Translations under genes and position numbers: made by a program
The notes under the pieces: generated by a model
The model's input: only the letters and a program-made list of their open reading frames with translations
Database searches by the model: none
Told to the model about the DNA's origin: nothing
From: Jiangella alba
Lineage (GTDB): Bacteria; Actinomycetota; Actinomycetes; Jiangellales; Jiangellaceae
Assembly (NCBI RefSeq): GCF_900106035.1
Contig: NZ_FNUC01000004.1
Coordinates: 1,240,001-1,304,000 of the forward strand
Reading direction: 5' to 3'
Length of the DNA: 64,000 nucleotides
Shown: one piece after another, positions 16,622 to 23,770 of the stretch
Numbering within the stretch: position 1 is the first letter of the stretch
Layout of the letters: each line of letters opens with the position of its first letter

Positions 16622-17461
16622 TCACTCGACCGGCCGCAGTGCGGCGGACACCCGGACCACGCCCGCGCCGTACCGCTCGTCCAGCTGCTCCTGCTGTCCG
16701 TCGGCGACGAACACGTCCAGCGTCACCTGGCCGCTGACGAGGTCGAGTGCGGTGGCGGGCACGCCGGGGCCGGCGGCGACGATCTCGTCCTGGATCGCGA
16801 TCAGCTCCTGCATGGTGCGCTCCGCCCCGGTGACGCAGAGCGGACCGCCCCAGAGGCCGCGCAGCGCGGTCTCGTGCCGCTCGAGGTCGCCGGTGAAGCT
16901 GAACGTGAGGATGTTGGGCCGGGCGAAACTGTCGATCCAGGTGCCGGCGAAGTCGGGCTGCGCGTACGCATAGTCCTCGGCCGCCGCGCGGCCCGCCTCG
17001 TTGGCGGTGGCGGCGTCGACGACGACCCAGCCGCCGGCCGGTGGCTCGCACGGCGGCGTGAAGTCGAGCACCGCGTCGTCGGGGAGCACCGGCGAGGTGG
17101 CGGCGCCGGACAGCGGCGGCTCGGTCAGCGTGAACGTGGTGCCGTCCCAGGTGCCCGTGACGGAGTAGAACCCCCAGGTGACGCCGTTGGCCGACTCGGC
17201 GTCGGGCGCCTGGTCCCAGTTCCAGCCGGCGATGTCGGGGCCGCCGCACTGCGGGGGATAGGACTCCGCCACCATGCTGCACAACTGCGGGCCGTGCCCG
17301 TAGCCCTCGAGGACGGTGAAGATCCCGGTGTAGAGCTGGCCGGAGTCGGCGGACGACGGGGCGTCCGACGGCGACGCGCTGCGTGGCGCCTCCTCATCGC
17401 CGCAGGCGGCGAGCAGCAGGGCCGCGACCGGCGCGGCGACGATCCACCCGAAGTGACGCAT
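16622..17461 (-). CDS. Lipoprotein with one copy of an unrecognised four-cysteine domain
   Basis: A 279-residue putative lipoprotein. I start it at ATG 17459-17461 because the product then begins MRHFGWIVAAPVAALLLAAC, a standard signal with lipobox LAAC (Cys20). After a Ser/Pro linker comes a ~235-residue domain marked by YTGIFTVLE, PPQCGGPDIAGWNWD, TGTWDGTTFTLTEPP, PPAGGWVVVDAATA, FTGDLERHE and GGPLCVTGAER, ending in VRVSAALRPVE. The neighbouring gene carries two more copies, including the four cysteines at matching places, suggesting two disulfides in an exported protein. I do not recognise the domain. Start-region sequences of the two genes are also nearly identical (ACGCATGCCACTTGGACG against ACGCATGTCACTAGGACG), a sign of tandem gene duplication. 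Confidence 0.85.
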   Translation of the reverse strand: MRHFGWIVAAPVAALLLAACGDEEAPRSASPSDAPSSADSGQLYTGIFTVLEGYGHGPQLCSMVAESYPPQCGGPDIAGWNWDQAPDAESANGVTWGFYSVTGTWDGTTFTLTEPPLSGAATSPVLPDDAVLDFTPPCEPPAGGWVVVDAATANEAGRAAAEDYAYAQPDFAGTWIDSFARPNILTFSFTGDLERHETALRGLWGGPLCVTGAERTMQELIAIQDEIVAAGPGVPATALDLVSGQVTLDVFVADGQQEQLDERYGAGVVRVSAALRPVE

Positions 17462-17506
17462 GCCACTTGGACGGCGCCGGCGGTCGCGACGTTCCGGCGC
17501 CACGCG

Positions 17507-19102
17507 TCAGTCCACCGGCTTCAGCAGAGCTTCGACCCGTACCAGGCCTGGCCCGTACTCCTCGTCGAGCCGCTCCTGCAGGCCGTCGTCGACGATCACC
17601 TGGATCCACACCGTGTTGGCCGGTGACTCGACCGTCCAGGCGAGGGCGTCGTGCGTGGCCGCGATCTCGGCGCCGGTCGCCTCCATCTCCTGCTGGCTGC
17701 GCGCGGCCTGGCTGACGCAGATGGCGCCGCCGTAGAGGCTCCGTAGCGCAGCTTCGTGGGTGGCGAGGTCGCCGGTGAACCGGAAGTTCACGATGATCTC
17801 CGCCGGCGCTGTCGCCGACCTGTCCTCGGGGGCGACGTGGCGGTCCAGCCATGAGTCGACATAGCCGGGCGCAGCCAGGGCGTACGCGTGGGCGCGGTCG
17901 AAGTCGGCCGCGTGCGTCAGCGCGCCGTCGAGGATCGCCCAGCCACCCGGCGGCGTCGGGCAGGAGGTGTCGAAGCGCTGGTTCAGATCCTCCGGCGGGC
18001 TGGCCAGTGGCGGTGGCTCGGCCGGCGCGGTGAGGGTCAGCGCGGTGCCGTCCCAGGTCCCCTCGATCCGGTAGTCGCCCCAGGTCACGCCGGCGGACGA
18101 CTCCTCTCCACGCACGTCGTCCCAGGACCAGCCGCGCAGCTCGAACCCCCCGCCGCAGCCGGGTGGATAGGACTCCATGACCATCGAGCAGGCGTTCACG
18201 TCGCCGTCGCGTGACTCGATGACGGTGAACGTGCCCGCGTAGACCGTCGGCGCGTCGTCGGGCGGCACCGGCCGCAGCGAGGCGGTCACCCGGACGGTGC
18301 CGGGGCCGTACTCGTCGTCGAGGCGGTCCTGCAGGCCGTCGTCGATCAGGGCCTGGACGTCGACCACGTTCTCCTGCTGCATCACGGCGGCGGAGAAGAT
18401 GCCGTGCTTGCCGGCCAGCTCCGCCTGGATCTCCTCCAGCCGGGCCTGTGGGTGCCGGGCCTCGGTGACGCAGAGCGCGCCGCCCCAGACGGCGCGCAGC
18501 TCCGCCTCGCGCGCGGCGAGTTCGCCGGTGAAGGTGATGTTGAGGATCGCCGCCACCGCTGCCTCCGGTGGTGGCGGGTCCGGCGGCTGCTCCACCTCGC
18601 GGTCGACCCAGAGGCCGCCGTAGCCGGGCAGCGTCGCGGCGTAGTCCCCGACGGCGGCGAGCGCCTCGGTGCTCGCGGTGGCGGGGTCGACGAACACCCA
18701 GCCGCCGGGCGGAACCGGGCAGGGCGTGGAGAGATCGGGGCCGGGTGGCTGCGGCTGCCGGCCGGACGGCTCGGCCGGGCCCGGCGGGGCGGTCAGCGTG
18801 AACTCGGAGCCGTCGAACGTGCCGGTGACCTGGTAGTCGCCCCACCTGACGCCGTCGACGGACTCGTGCTCGACGTCGGCCCAGTCCCAGTTCGGGATGT
18901 CCGGCCCGCCGCACTGCGGCGGCAGGCTCAGGAGGGTGCCGCCGGCACAGAGTTGCGGCCCGTGCTCGGCACTCTCGAGGACGGTGAACGTGCCGGTGTA
19001 GCGCGGCTCCGGCGTGGTGGCGGACCCGCCCGGCTCGGCGTCGGCGGCCGTGCACGCCGTCAGCCCGACGACGACGCCCGCCAGCCACCCCCTGTGACGC
19101 AT
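17507..19102 (-). CDS. Lipoprotein with two tandem copies of the same four-cysteine domain
   Basis: A 531-residue putative lipoprotein: signal MRHRGWLAGVVVGLTAC with Cys17 as the lipidation site, then two copies of the domain seen in the next gene downstream. Copy 1 spans about residues 35-277 and copy 2 about 284-531. Shared signatures include YTGTFTV/YAGTFTV, PPQCGG/PPGCGG, TGTFDGSEFTLTAPP/EGTWDGTALTLTAPA, PPGGW, FTGELAARE/FTGDLATHE, WGGALCV/YGGAICV and DDGLQDRLDDEYGPG/DDGLQERLDEEYGPG. Four cysteines per copy are conserved. ATG at 19100-19102. It precedes the single-domain paralogue by 45 bp on the same strand. Function unknown; repeat architecture suggests binding rather than catalysis. 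Confidence 0.85.
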   Translation of the reverse strand: MRHRGWLAGVVVGLTACTAADAEPGGSATTPEPRYTGTFTVLESAEHGPQLCAGGTLLSLPPQCGGPDIPNWDWADVEHESVDGVRWGDYQVTGTFDGSEFTLTAPPGPAEPSGRQPQPPGPDLSTPCPVPPGGWVFVDPATASTEALAAVGDYAATLPGYGGLWVDREVEQPPDPPPPEAAVAAILNITFTGELAAREAELRAVWGGALCVTEARHPQARLEEIQAELAGKHGIFSAAVMQQENVVDVQALIDDGLQDRLDDEYGPGTVRVTASLRPVPPDDAPTVYAGTFTVIESRDGDVNACSMVMESYPPGCGGGFELRGWSWDDVRGEESSAGVTWGDYRIEGTWDGTALTLTAPAEPPPLASPPEDLNQRFDTSCPTPPGGWAILDGALTHAADFDRAHAYALAAPGYVDSWLDRHVAPEDRSATAPAEIIVNFRFTGDLATHEAALRSLYGGAICVSQAARSQQEMEATGAEIAATHDALAWTVESPANTVWIQVIVDDGLQERLDEEYGPGLVRVEALLKPVD

Positions 19103-19148
19103 GTCACTAGGACGGGCGACGCGCGCGGGAGGTTCCCGGCGAAACGGG

Positions 19149-19745
19149 TCAGGTCTGCTGGATCAGCGACATCGCGTGCTCGACCAGCGTGACGAGCACC
19201 ACCTTGACCGACTCGCGGTCGCGCGCGTCGGTGACGACGAACGGGACCTCGGGGCCGACCTGCAGGGCGTCGCGGACGTCCTCGACGTCGTGCTCCTGGA
19301 TGCCGTTGAACGCGTTGAGCGCGACGACGAACGGGATGCCGCGCTGCTCGACGTAGTCGATGGCGCCGAAGCAGTCGGCCAGGCGGCGGGTGTCGACGAG
19401 CACGACCGCGCCGATGGCGCCGCGGGTGATGTCGTCCCACATGAACCAGAACCGGTTCTGGCCCGGCGTGCCGAACAGGTACAGCACGAGGTCGTCGGCC
19501 AGCGTGATGCGGCCGAAGTCCATGGCGACGGTCGTGGTGCGCTTCTCGGGCAGCATGGAGAGGTCGTCGACGCTGGTCGAGGCCTCGGTCATCAGTGCCT
19601 CGGTACGCAGCGGCTCGATCTCGCTGACCGCGCCGACGAACGTCGTCTTGCCCACGCCGAAACCGCCGGCCACGACGATCTTGACCGACAGCGCGTCTTG
19701 GTCGGCCTGTGTGCCGCCAGACACCTCAGAGTCGACGAAGGCCAT
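19149..19745 (-). CDS. cvnD: Conservon GTPase CvnD
   Basis: A 198-residue Ras-like small GTPase of the actinomycete conservon type. Walker A is GGFGVGKTT at 27-35, the switch 2 region reads LYLFGTPGQNRFWFMWDDI (the DxxG position is occupied by FGTPGQ), and the base-recognition loop is VALNAFNG. It acts with CvnA, B and C as a membrane-associated, heterotrimeric-G-protein-like complex that tunes development or secondary metabolism in Streptomyces. ATG at 19743-19745 with AAAGGGTGAGGG. Its first 20 bases overlap the end of cvnC, so translation is coupled. It is the last gene of the cvnABCD operon. Confidence 0.95.
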   Translation of the reverse strand: MAFVDSEVSGGTQADQDALSVKIVVAGGFGVGKTTFVGAVSEIEPLRTEALMTEASTSVDDLSMLPEKRTTTVAMDFGRITLADDLVLYLFGTPGQNRFWFMWDDITRGAIGAVVLVDTRRLADCFGAIDYVEQRGIPFVVALNAFNGIQEHDVEDVRDALQVGPEVPFVVTDARDRESVKVVLVTLVEHAMSLIQQT

Positions 19746-20088
19746 CCCTCACCCTTTCCAGCACGCTCAGATTACGAGCCGGCTCCTCGGAGCCGGCGAA
19801 CGCCGCATGCGGGTCAGCGACCCGCACCAGTCCTTCGGTCTCGAGGTCCGCGACGAGCACGCGGGCCACACCGAGTGGCATCGAGACGATTGCGGCCACC
19901 TCGGCCACGGACCGTGGCGAGTGGCACAGCCGGAGGATCCGCTCCCGTTCCGGCTCCGGGTCGGAGCCGTTGGTGCGGCCGTCCTTCGTGGTGGAGACGA
20001 GGGCCTCGATGGCGATGTCCTGCACCGGGCGCGTGCGCCCACGCGTCGCAAGATACGGCCGTACCCTCCGGCCGTCAGGTGCCGGCAT
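19726..20088 (-). CDS. cvnC: Conservon DUF742 protein CvnC
   Basis: A 120-residue DUF742 protein. The N-terminus RRVRPYLATRGRTRPVQDIA and the winged-helix-like segment SVAEVAAIVSMPLGVARVLV followed by DLETEGLVRV are the family signature. In conservons it is thought to sit between the roadblock protein and the GTPase. ATG at 20086-20088 has the strong site GGAGGTAACG. It overlaps cvnD by 20 bp and follows cvnB by 86 bp. No DNA-binding role is proven for the family. Confidence 0.95.
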   Translation of the reverse strand: MPAPDGRRVRPYLATRGRTRPVQDIAIEALVSTTKDGRTNGSDPEPERERILRLCHSPRSVAEVAAIVSMPLGVARVLVADLETEGLVRVADPHAAFAGSEEPARNLSVLERVRDGLRRL

Positions 20089-20174: not shown

Positions 20175-20570
20175 TCACCCGACCCGGGTGGCCGGGTTGA
20201 GTACGGCGCCCACGCGTTCGACGAGCAGCGCCATCTCGTAGCCCACCTGACCGAGGTCGGCGGTGGAGGCTGCCAGCACGGCCAGGTGCGCGCCGTCGCC
20301 GACCGCCATGACCAGCAGGAAGCCGTTGCTCATCTCTACCAGGGTCTGCTGGACCTCGCCCGCGCCCAGGATCAGCGAAGCGCCGACCGTGAGGCTGGCC
20401 AGTCCGGACACCACCGCAGCGAGCTGCTCGCCGCGTTCACGCGGCATGCCCGTGGAGCCGGCCAGGTGCAGACCGTCGGCGGATACCACGACCGCGTGCG
20501 CGGCGCCAGTGGTGCGGTCGACGAAACGGTCGAGCAGCCAGCCGAGCTCGTCGCTGGAGGCGTTGGTCAC
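20175..20570 (-). CDS. cvnB: Conservon roadblock/LC7 protein CvnB
   Basis: A 131-residue roadblock/LC7-domain protein, a likely activator or scaffold of the CvnD GTPase. Diagnostic segments are ELGWLLDRFVDRTTGAAHAV, VVSADGLHLAGS, ERGEQLAAVVSGLASL and GFLLVMAVGDGAHLAVLA. I use GTG 20568-20570, which has AAGGAG and overlaps the cvnA stop by GTGA; the frame extends upstream to 20612 inside cvnA and that extension is rejected. Second gene of the cvn operon. Confidence 0.95.
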   Translation of the reverse strand: MTNASSDELGWLLDRFVDRTTGAAHAVVVSADGLHLAGSTGMPRERGEQLAAVVSGLASLTVGASLILGAGEVQQTLVEMSNGFLLVMAVGDGAHLAVLAASTADLGQVGYEMALLVERVGAVLNPATRVG

Positions 20571-23500
20571 GAATCGCTCCTTTCGGGGTCGCTGGGCCGC
20601 TTGGGTACCCAACCACCGGTTTCCTCCCGACCGCGCCCGACACCTCGCTGCAGGCTGGCCAGCGTCGAGGCAACGTTACTCGCGTCCTTGGCCGCCGCGG
20701 CAGGGCGTCGGGTCCGTTCGGTCTCGTTGAGCTCGCCGATGGAGCCGGGCACCAGCGAGGCGCCGCGGCGCCGCAGCGGCAGGCCGGACGCGCTGAGCGC
20801 GGGCTCGGCCTCCGCGACCGGCTCGGGCACCGGCGGCGGCGGCGCCGTCTCGCGGCTCGCCCAGCCCGAACCCACCGGCGGCGACGTCTGGATCGGCTCG
20901 GTGTCGCGCTGCCCGGCGCGGGCGCTGGCCGCCTCTTCGGCCGAGCGCAGCGCCTCGGCGGCGCGCCGCCAGCCTTCGTCGGCGGGACTGGACCAGTCGT
21001 CGGTGGACGACTCGCCGGACCGGCTGAACCAGGCGGAGGCGACGGAGTCGTAGATCGGCGAGTCGCTCTCCGGCAGCACCGGCTCGGGTGCGCGCAGCGA
21101 GGAGCGGGCGGCCGGCGCGGCGGGCTTGGCCGGTGGCGGGGCCGCCGGCGGGCGGATCTCGGGCCGCGGCTCCTGACGGGGCTCGCGGGTCGGCAGCGCC
21201 GAGCCGGTGCTGCCGTTGGTCAGCGGCTGCCGCCAGGCCTCGTCGGGCCGTGTGCCGTGGTCGGTGGTGACGCGACGCTCGCCGGTGTCGGTGAGGCGGC
21301 GCTCGCCGGTCTCGGCCGGCTTGTGCTCACCGGTGTCGGCGACGGCGTGCTCGCCGGTGTCGTAGCGGGTCTCGGCCGTGATGGGCGCGATGCGCGACTC
21401 GCCGGTGTCGGGACGCAGCCGCGACTCCTCCGGGCTGGGCCAGGTGGGCCGGCCGGCGTCCATGGTGGGCGCGGGCTCGGGCGTCGGCCGCGGCAGGTCG
21501 GACGCCTCGACCGGGATGCGGGTCTCGTCGGGACGCTCGCCGCGGCGGGGCAGCCCGGACGTGGCCGGCGCGGTGATCGACGGCAGCGACGGCGAGGAGT
21601 CGTCGCGGCGGAACGGCGCCGGGCTCGGGTCGAGGTTCCACGAGTCGTTCAGGCCACCGGCCGGCTGCGGCGCCGCCGGCTCGGCCGGCACCGGCGGGAT
21701 GACGCCCTCGCTGGTGTCGAGCGGGGAGAGGATGAGGTGCGCCGGGAGGTCGACCTGCGCGGCCGTGCCGCCCTCGGGCACCGGCTCGAGCCGCACCTGG
21801 ATGCCGTGCTTGGCGGCCAGGCGCGCGACCACGTAGAGGCCCAGCGTGCGGGACGCCGCGACGTCGATGTCACCGACGTTGCGCAGCCGCTCGTTCAGCT
21901 CCTCGAGCTGACCGGCCGGGATGCCCAGGCCGGAGTCGGTGACCTGCAGGCGCAGCCCGCCGCCGAGCAGCGGCTGGCTGGTGACCCGGACCGGCGTGGC
22001 CGGCGCGGAGAACTCGGTGGCGTTGTCGATCAGCTCGGCCAGCAGGTGGGCGATGTCGTCGACGGCGCCGGCGGTGATGAGGTCGGTCGGCATGACGCCG
22101 AACTTCACCCGCGGGTACTGCTCGACCTCGCCGACCGCGGTACGGACGACGTCGAGGACGCCGGCCGCGCTGGTGTGCTTGCGCATCTCCTCGACGCCGG
22201 CGAGGACCAGGAGGCTCTCGGCGTGCCGCCGGACGCGGGTGGCCATGTGGTCGATGCGGAACAGCGTGCTCAGCTGGTCGGGGTCGCGCTCGCGCTGCTC
22301 GAGGCCCTCGATCTCGCCGAGCTGGCGGTCGACCAGCGACTGGGTGCGGCGGGAGAGGTTGACGACGATGGTGTCGAGGTTCTGCCGCAGCAGCGCCTGC
22401 TCGGCGGCGACCCGGACGGCGGTGGAGTGGACGTCGTTGAACGCCGTGGCGACCTGGCCGATCTCGTCGCGACCCTCGGCCGTGACGGCGTCGGGGAGGT
22501 TGCGGGCGACCGCCGGGCCGTCCTTGTGCACCCGGTCGACCAGCGCCGGCAGCTGGGTCTGCGCGGTCTCGAGCGCCGAGGCGCGCAGCCGGCGCAGCGG
22601 GCCGATGATGGAGCGCGCCACGACGATGGCGAGGTAGACGGTGAGCGCCAGGACGGCGAGCACGCCGAGCGCGCTGAACAGCGCCGTGACGCGGGCGCTG
22701 TCAGTGCGGTCGGCCGCCAGCGCCAGCACGCTGTTGCCGGTGTCCTGCTGGATGTCGCGCAGGGCGTCGAGGCGCTGCGTCGACAGCTCCCACCACTGCT
22801 GCTTGTCGATGCGCGGCAGGGCGAAGTCGGAGATGTCGGTGCGGGCCTGGGCGAGCTCGCGGTTGGCGACGTAGATCTCGTTGGAGTAGATGCGCTGCTG
22901 CTCGGTGAAGCCGAGGGCGCGGAGGAACCGGCCGTCCAGCAGCATGGCCTGCTCGCCCTGCAGCGCCACGGCCTGGTCGCGATCGGCCTGCGAGGGCGCG
23001 ACCTCGGGCGTCATGAAGTAGGCGACGATGCCGCGCTCGAGCGACGCCGACTCGACCGCCTGGGCGACATCGGCCAGCGCCGAGATGCGGCGGGCCAGCG
23101 CGGGGTCCTCGGTGCCGGTGGCGGCGGCGGTGGCCAGCCGCTGCAGCACCTCGGCGAAGCGGTGGTAGCCGGCGGTGCCGCCGTCGTTGAAGGCCGGGTC
23201 CTTGGCGTCGCGCTGGATGCGGTAGTTCGACTCGTTCGTGGTGCCGCTGAGCCGGTCGACCTCGGTCTCGTACTGCTCGACCGCGGCCGCATAGGCGGAG
23301 CCGAGGTCGTCGCCGCGGTGCTCGTCGATCTCCGCGTTCAGGGCGGCGATGGCGGCGTCGGTGGCCTCGCGCGCGGTGTCGACCGACGCCGGCTCGGTGC
23401 CGCCGCCGTCCGCAAGGCCGGTGACGTCGCGTTCGTCCTGGACCGCCTGCAGCGCCTGCAGCGCCACCATGCCGACCTCGGCCAGGCTCTCGGTGCGCGA

Positions 23501-23770
23501 GGCGGACGAGGCGTCGTCGAGCGAGTTCTTGAAGAACAGGGTGCCGAGCACGAGCGTGCCGAGCAGCGGAAGAAGGACCAGTGCGGCGACGCGCGACCGG
23601 ACGCTGCGGTCGTGCAGGAAGGACTGCCAGAACGACCGCGAGCGCGCGCCGTCGCCATCCTTCGCGCGACCGGACTTCACGGCTGGGCGCTGGTCTGCAG
23701 GGCGCAGATTCGCGCGCGCCCGCTTCGTGGCGCCGTCGTTGCTACGGCGTCCTCGGGCGGTCCGCGTCAT
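20567..23770 (-). CDS. cvnA: Conservon sensor histidine kinase CvnA (nitrate/nitrite-sensor type)
   Basis: A 1067-residue membrane histidine kinase. A basic N-terminus leads to helix 1 (~61-80), an extracytoplasmic four-helix NIT-type sensor (~85-355), helix 2 (~362-385), a HAMP region (~386-450), a dimerisation segment (~455-530) and a HATPase domain whose N box includes LLAELIDNATEFSAP and whose G box includes TDSGLGIPAGQL. The ~350-residue C-terminal tail is disordered-looking and rich in Pro, Glu and Arg; around residues 790-860 it repeats the word DTGE or ETGE at least seven times. ATG at 23768-23770 with GGAAGGA. The end overlaps cvnB. No response regulator is adjacent, which is normal for conservons. 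Confidence 0.93.
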   Translation of the reverse strand: MTRTARGRRSNDGATKRARANLRPADQRPAVKSGRAKDGDGARSRSFWQSFLHDRSVRSRVAALVLLPLLGTLVLGTLFFKNSLDDASSASRTESLAEVGMVALQALQAVQDERDVTGLADGGGTEPASVDTAREATDAAIAALNAEIDEHRGDDLGSAYAAAVEQYETEVDRLSGTTNESNYRIQRDAKDPAFNDGGTAGYHRFAEVLQRLATAAATGTEDPALARRISALADVAQAVESASLERGIVAYFMTPEVAPSQADRDQAVALQGEQAMLLDGRFLRALGFTEQQRIYSNEIYVANRELAQARTDISDFALPRIDKQQWWELSTQRLDALRDIQQDTGNSVLALAADRTDSARVTALFSALGVLAVLALTVYLAIVVARSIIGPLRRLRASALETAQTQLPALVDRVHKDGPAVARNLPDAVTAEGRDEIGQVATAFNDVHSTAVRVAAEQALLRQNLDTIVVNLSRRTQSLVDRQLGEIEGLEQRERDPDQLSTLFRIDHMATRVRRHAESLLVLAGVEEMRKHTSAAGVLDVVRTAVGEVEQYPRVKFGVMPTDLITAGAVDDIAHLLAELIDNATEFSAPATPVRVTSQPLLGGGLRLQVTDSGLGIPAGQLEELNERLRNVGDIDVAASRTLGLYVVARLAAKHGIQVRLEPVPEGGTAAQVDLPAHLILSPLDTSEGVIPPVPAEPAAPQPAGGLNDSWNLDPSPAPFRRDDSSPSLPSITAPATSGLPRRGERPDETRIPVEASDLPRPTPEPAPTMDAGRPTWPSPEESRLRPDTGESRIAPITAETRYDTGEHAVADTGEHKPAETGERRLTDTGERRVTTDHGTRPDEAWRQPLTNGSTGSALPTREPRQEPRPEIRPPAAPPPAKPAAPAARSSLRAPEPVLPESDSPIYDSVASAWFSRSGESSTDDWSSPADEGWRRAAEALRSAEEAASARAGQRDTEPIQTSPPVGSGWASRETAPPPPVPEPVAEAEPALSASGLPLRRRGASLVPGSIGELNETERTRRPAAAAKDASNVASTLASLQRGVGRGREETGGWVPKRPSDPERSDS

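Follow-up and report, generated by a model that had tools for sequence, protein, structure and literature searches.

Conservons, the cvnABCD gene sets, form an actinobacterial G protein system. According to the available text of PMC13343842, the cues that conservons sense are largely unexplored, and conservons carry accessory genes downstream of cvnD whose products modulate the sensor kinase CvnA. The accessories CvnE, a P450, and CvnF, a GAF protein, pair with CvnA proteins that have no outer domain (available text of PMC13343842 and PMC8510531), and because their predicted binding site is the HATPase part of CvnA (PMC13343842, same portion) they are likely to be cytoplasmic. The named accessories thus appear to work inside the cell, while the lipoproteins described in the present work lie outside it.

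A second group of described systems that bears on the locus is that of protease propeptides, among which the subtilase propeptide fold differs from the alpha-lytic pro-region fold. The pro region of alpha-lytic protease aids the folding of its enzyme and also inhibits it, as stated in the available parts of PMC2829044 and PMC2605481. In Plasmodium, SUB1-ProM has a propeptide-like fold that occurs without its protease, and the available part of PMC6993865 describes it as a subtilase propeptide with measured inhibition. The open-licence literature yielded no description of an outer lipoprotein encoded behind cvnD or of an alpha-lytic-type pro-region fold free of a protease.

The window, by which is meant the whole stretch of 64,000 nucleotides of the 7.68 Mb Jiangella alba genome that was analysed, contains a conservon followed by two lipoprotein genes, all on the minus strand. 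The conservon consists of a cvnA-type sensor kinase with NIT, HAMP and HATPase domains (20567..23770), in which the outer NIT domain is matched at E 1e-21, a cvnB-type roadblock protein (20175..20612), a cvnC-type DUF742 protein (19726..20088) and a cvnD-type small GTPase (19149..19745). The last of these lies 46 bases upstream of P0002 (17507..19102, 531 aa), which encodes units B1 and then B2, and P0001 (16622..17461) encodes the single unit A; both genes were delimited by open reading frame and copy alignment. The likely start of P0001 is the ATG at 17461, which gives 279 aa, while the mechanical open reading frame begins at the GTG at 17503. The claim of two lipoprotein genes with one and two copies of a unit of about 240 residues is therefore borne out, and inspection places the lipobox cysteines of the two proteins at C20 and C17.

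The DNA around the two start codons had been described as nearly the same, and the likeness is real: the P0002 start region (19091..19147, minus strand) and its other copy at the start of P0001 (17450..17506, minus strand) are identical at 35 of 57 bases in a DNA alignment. The alignment score is 23, whereas none of 2000 shuffles exceeded 10, and six control regions, at the starts of other open reading frames on the minus strand, gave scores of -9 to 3. At the protein level, units A (16625..17338, minus strand, P0001 residues 43-279), B1 (18266..19003, minus strand, P0002 from residue 34) and B2 (17510..18247, minus strand, P0002 from residue 287), placed by copy alignment, show pairwise identities of 44.2-47.9% over 234-242 columns and pairwise BLAST E values of 9e-60 to 1e-57. 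The four cysteines align in the same order in all three, and the motifs listed in the sequence-only reading are present with small variations, B2 carrying EGTWDGTALTLT and YGGAICV and the DDGLQ end of A reading ADGQQEQLDERYGAG.

A FastTree phylogeny of 32 units places A, B1 and B2 each with its counterparts from other Jiangella genomes and makes B1 and B2 sisters (support 0.94), with weak support for the root and the deeper nodes. The gene and domain duplication proposed earlier agrees with this tree, and because of the grouping the tree supports a gene duplication followed by a domain duplication, both before the split of the genomes that have both forms. A duplication confined to this strain is ruled out by the same tree.

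The family could not be named from its letters, and searches of curated families leave it so: no Pfam, NCBIfam, PHROGs or PADLOC family is matched by the unit. A known Pfam or NCBIfam family is accordingly rejected, as is a phage, plasmid or defence protein, for which two of the searches used P0001 only; a PDB sequence search with family profiles gave nothing relevant (best E 0.16 and 0.99). That the family is exported holds widely, since a regular expression finds a lipobox in 86 of 93 relative open reading frames and inspection by eye adds five of the other seven; the remaining two (L105 and L127) have a transmembrane anchor in place of the lipobox.

Homologues occur in 20 of 60 relatives and in 29 of 396 genomes sampled across Actinomycetota, with the own genome counted in each case and with several partial or weak matches, down to E 4e-4, included in the second count. 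A pattern scan of genome contigs confirmed 218 relatives, and the analysis was carried out on the best 80 of the 218, all of which we take from their names to be actinobacterial; class-wide searches for G349 and G223, made in the same 27 genomes, returned four matches, all already known. Conservation of the cysteines in homologues had been set as a test of the domain, and every one of 89 full-length units has all four, together with Arg159 and Gly164; these units are the window's three and 86 from the best 80 loci that score above 150 bits, start at position <=15 and end at position >=244. The scan demanded the PPQC motif, so this count is no proof of the conservation of Cys2. All four cysteines are likewise invariant in the 22-row alignment A2, which was built from searches free of the PPQC pattern and comprises the three window units and 19 hand-picked full-length rows from the relative and phylum searches.

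What does not stand is the description of the unit as one unrecognised domain. It consists of two modules, and the C-terminal half has the recognisable fold of an alpha-lytic protease pro region, to which its profile is also remotely similar. The structure prediction that had been suggested for one copy was made for unit A with AlphaFold2 (73 sequences; pLDDT 94.0, pTM 0.86), and it predicts an N-module holding Cys1 and Cys2 and a C-module holding Cys3 and Cys4. The N-modules span 17108..17338 in A, 18776..19003 in B1 and 18014..18247 in B2, and the C-modules 16625..17056, 18266..18727 and 17510..17968 respectively, all on the minus strand. In the model of A the C-module runs helix-strand-strand-helix-strand, twice, and its two halves align with each other by profile at a probability of 81% (E 1.2e-5, single comparison). 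The N-module of A, modelled alone at pLDDT 95.7, is predicted to be a small beta barrel. Foldseek returned nothing at E <=0.001 for this model, and the best VIA match is lipoprotein BF3042 (Z 5.0, 58 aligned, 3.0 A), followed in the VIA list by several chains that we take to be OB folds; the predicted barrel is suggestive of an OB-like fold, an assignment that is weak because there is no clear structural neighbour.

Reduced forms of the unit among the relatives separate the two modules and rule out a single domain of 240 residues. Eight short forms (L120, L125, L137, L138, L147, L148, L206 and L207) consist of the N-module and one C-terminal repeat, and the L143 open reading frame is the N-module alone, with no C-part in the approximately 1 kb behind it; in five loci (L120, L125, L137, L138 and L143) the reduced form adjoins a full-length copy. 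All nine of these forms have the N-module, and all nine keep Cys1 and Cys2 and have neither Cys3 nor Cys4. Because Cys3 and Cys4 go missing together, the pattern of residues suggests disulfides between Cys1 and Cys2 and between Cys3 and Cys4, which in P0001 would be Cys61-Cys72 and Cys138-Cys209.

The assignment of the C-module was obtained both from structure comparison and from profiles. Every one of the top seven Foldseek matches of the unit A model in the PDB is a chain of the alpha-lytic pro region (best E 3.6e-4, probability 1.00), and the eighth match has a probability of 0.33; secretion-ring proteins, which have the same kind of small alpha/beta repeat, also appear in the list, with probabilities of up to 0.87 (4alz, E 7e-3). 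VIA aligns 119 residues of unit A with the pro region at Z 7.3 and 4.3 A, the next unrelated rows reaching 5.2. The tool warns that a Z below 8 may reflect only a shared arrangement, and the match therefore rests on the profile test too. A profile of 73 C-modules scored 45.0 against a profile of 17 pro-region segments of S1 proteases from other genomes, and 48.1 with the sides swapped. The controls stayed lower: 400 column shuffles reached at most 18.4, the two reversed alignments gave 10.7 and 9.2, and the N-module scored 7.6 against the same S1 profile. When the pro-segment profile was searched against the 89 units, 4 were found at E <0.01 and 25 at E <1, compared to 0 and 1 of 89 reversed units and 0 and 0 of 445 shuffled ones; in the converse search the 17 pro segments, taken as single sequences, were compared to the C-module profile, and none fell below E 0.13. 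The Pfam model of the pro region, PF02983, finds neither P0001 nor P0002 at E 5, and it hits two of the 22 rows of A2 (best E 0.003) and a single one of the 73 members of A4 (E 6e-5); the unit of G349 scores 20.7 bits with it, under the Pfam gathering cut-off of 23.4 bits.

The predicted C-module thus resembles the pro region (PF02983; PDB 2pro, 3pro and 4pro) in its two alpha-beta-beta-alpha-beta repeats, in a stretch that resembles YAGxW, and in its chain end, which aligns close to that of the pro region (model residue 238 with 4pro residue 164). It also ends about where pro regions are normally cut off, the chain stopping 0-3 residues past the profile match in 84 of 91 open reading frames, and no S1 protease domain follows, P0001 and P0002 having no trypsin match in Pfam. 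It differs from the pro region in that it is fused behind another module, is lipid-anchored and falls below the Pfam cut-off, and in that a conserved cysteine pair has been added: cysteines are absent from 15 of the 17 S1 pro-region segments, and the remaining two extend into the mature enzyme. A pro-region fold that lacks the protease and carries an additional cysteine pair would bring the alpha-lytic protease class under the propeptide-like idea.

Because of its pro-region-like half, the most specific rival explanation of the function of these proteins is that they are propeptide-like inhibitors, or folding helpers in trans, in which a membrane-tethered C-module locked by Cys3-Cys4 blocks secreted proteases of the alpha-lytic or streptogrisin type at the cell surface. 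The Foldseek, VIA and profile matches and the position of the chain end all speak for such a role, as does the precedent of a free-standing propeptide-like inhibitor of subtilases in SUB1-ProM (available part of PMC6993865). One of the seven trypsin-family genes of the own genome (L187) encodes a secreted S1 protease with an apparent pro region, at C3:1295414-1295860, which resembles a streptogrisin-type pro region and is matched by PF02983 at only E 0.43. Against this role, the 15 genomes above the PF02983 cut-off, among 392 drawn, include none of the 29 with the unit, among 396 drawn, and at E 0.01 the two coincide only in G349, where the match is the unit itself, and in G341, where it lies in another place. 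No S1 protease partner gene was recognised by motif in the best 80 of the 218 loci, in which 10 open reading frames match the motif, and the converse profile search likewise stopped at E 0.13. Moreover, what every form examined shares is the N-module and not the C-module, of whose two repeats the short forms retain one. We regard the inhibitor role as rather unlikely. A further proposal, that free, disulfide-locked descendants of the pro region act as lipid-anchored protease sensors which capture secreted S1 proteases and report them through the conservon or an ECF sigma factor, is considerably more doubtful still; if true, a protease folding helper would have been turned into a receptor.

The gene neighbourhood bears on the function from another side. 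In 12 of 12 Jiangella genomes searched (the own genome and G001-G011) the unit lies directly downstream of cvnD, with a gap of 23-203 bases where the start is kept. At this locus the own genome and G008-G011 each have three complete units, G007 has two, and G003 and G004 have one; G001, G002 and G006 keep one beside the broken remains of more copies, and G005 retains fragments only. Frameshifted or fragmentary units stand behind cvnD in four Jiangella loci, each from a different genome (L230, L231, L234 and L235). Beyond these twelve genomes, the unit is also directly behind cvnD in G017 and G021 and about 1.6 kb away in G014, while the conservon of G012 is not accompanied by the unit, and around the unit of G013 the 10 kb examined contain no cvn gene.

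The lipoprotein genes diverge quickly. Identity of cvnD is 97.0-99.5% within the genus, and when the window is compared with four relatives dN/dS comes to 0.46-0.80 for P0001 and 0.40-0.45 for P0002, compared to 0.02-0.05 for cvnD, 0.22-0.44 for cvnA and 0.24-0.48 for the flanking epimerase gene. The upper values of cvnA and the epimerase gene, 0.44 and 0.48, are reached against the more distant relatives and lie near those of P0002, which leaves a strong contrast only for P0001 and relative to cvnB and cvnD. Against the two closest relatives (L238 and L239), dS is approximately 2-7 times as high in the lipoprotein genes as in the cvn genes, and against the other two only approximately 1.1-2.8 times as high; the raised values against the closest relatives hint at recombination, as if alleles had been swapped.

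The reading that we favour, as a tentative one that falls somewhat short of an even chance, is that the lipoproteins are fast-evolving extracytoplasmic input modules of signalling systems, here of the conservon directly upstream. In its favour are signalling neighbours in two unrelated settings, the position outside the membrane, the rapid divergence and the presence of the N-module in every form examined. P0001 and P0002 would then be membrane-anchored accessory lipoproteins facing outside, with the N-module as the putative ligand- or partner-binding part, while the pro-region-like C-module, locked by a disulfide, would serve as a scaffold or bind proteins. The lipoproteins may touch the outer NIT domain of CvnA, and a cue that binds them would alter the relay from CvnA through CvnB/C to CvnD; in other lineages the transmembrane-anchored unit would provide the input to an ECF sigma factor. 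The gene place, immediately downstream of cvnD, is that of CvnE and CvnF. Unlike those accessories, the window proteins have no P450 or GAF domain (in Pfam, P0001 has no match and P0002 has sub-threshold matches only, of other kinds) and they are lipoproteins outside the membrane. The CvnA partners differ as well, those of CvnE and CvnF having no outer domain and the one here having an outer NIT, which counts against the input reading. Also against it are the conservon and the unit that occur apart in G012 and G013, the dN/dS of cvnA and the epimerase gene near that of P0002, the differing neighbours in other genera and the anchored forms of L189 and L105, described below. An outer, fast-diverging lipoprotein behind cvnD would represent a concrete, testable input component of a conservon.

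The same neighbourhood can be read differently, as that of an envelope lipoprotein without a signalling role, whose N-module binds a cell-wall or small-molecule ligand and whose adjacency to cvnD is historical. The contexts of the unit do vary between genera, and several Jiangella copies are frameshifted or fragmentary, so the gene looks dispensable. No shared signalling gene was recognised in 14 loci outside Jiangellaceae, where a rough gene caller was used. This explanation, which we consider unlikely while giving it real weight, has against it that the adjacency to cvnD is kept in all twelve Jiangella genomes searched despite the turnover of copies, and that the unit is coupled to ECF sigma genes in three distant loci.

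These three loci provide the second setting for the role as input module. In L127 (6192-7753), L191 and L193 the unit forms the outer portion of a protein in which a transmembrane anchor is read by eye, and the gene of this anchored protein starts inside the last stretch of a SigE-type ECF sigma gene; L127 comes, by its title, from a metagenome-assembled genome, and L191 and L193 come from genomes of one class. Transmembrane-anchored forms number five in all, of which one (L189) has no visible sigma gene ahead of it and another (L105) starts at a contig end. The anchored form in L105 (L105:1-1335) carries approximately 138 extra residues after the unit.

The nearest named family for such proteins is CU044_5270 (NF038083), presumably membrane proteins encoded behind ECF sigma genes, and the likeness is limited to a weak match of the N-terminal anchor regions of L193 and L105 (E 0.0014 and 0.001; scores 18.5 and 19, far under the cut-off of 100). 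L127, L191 and the window proteins have no CU044_5270 match. An ECF anti-sigma factor would have a cytoplasmic sigma-binding domain, and when the N-terminal parts of L127, L191 and L193 were compared to families, this weak match of L193 was the only one.

A different context recurs in many Nocardioides loci, for example L114:4719-9819, which share a HemY/HemG-like oxidase, a chlorite-dismutase-family gene (HemQ-like; the family, PF06778, was tested in L114) and the unit, together with a further gene that we take to be MsrB.
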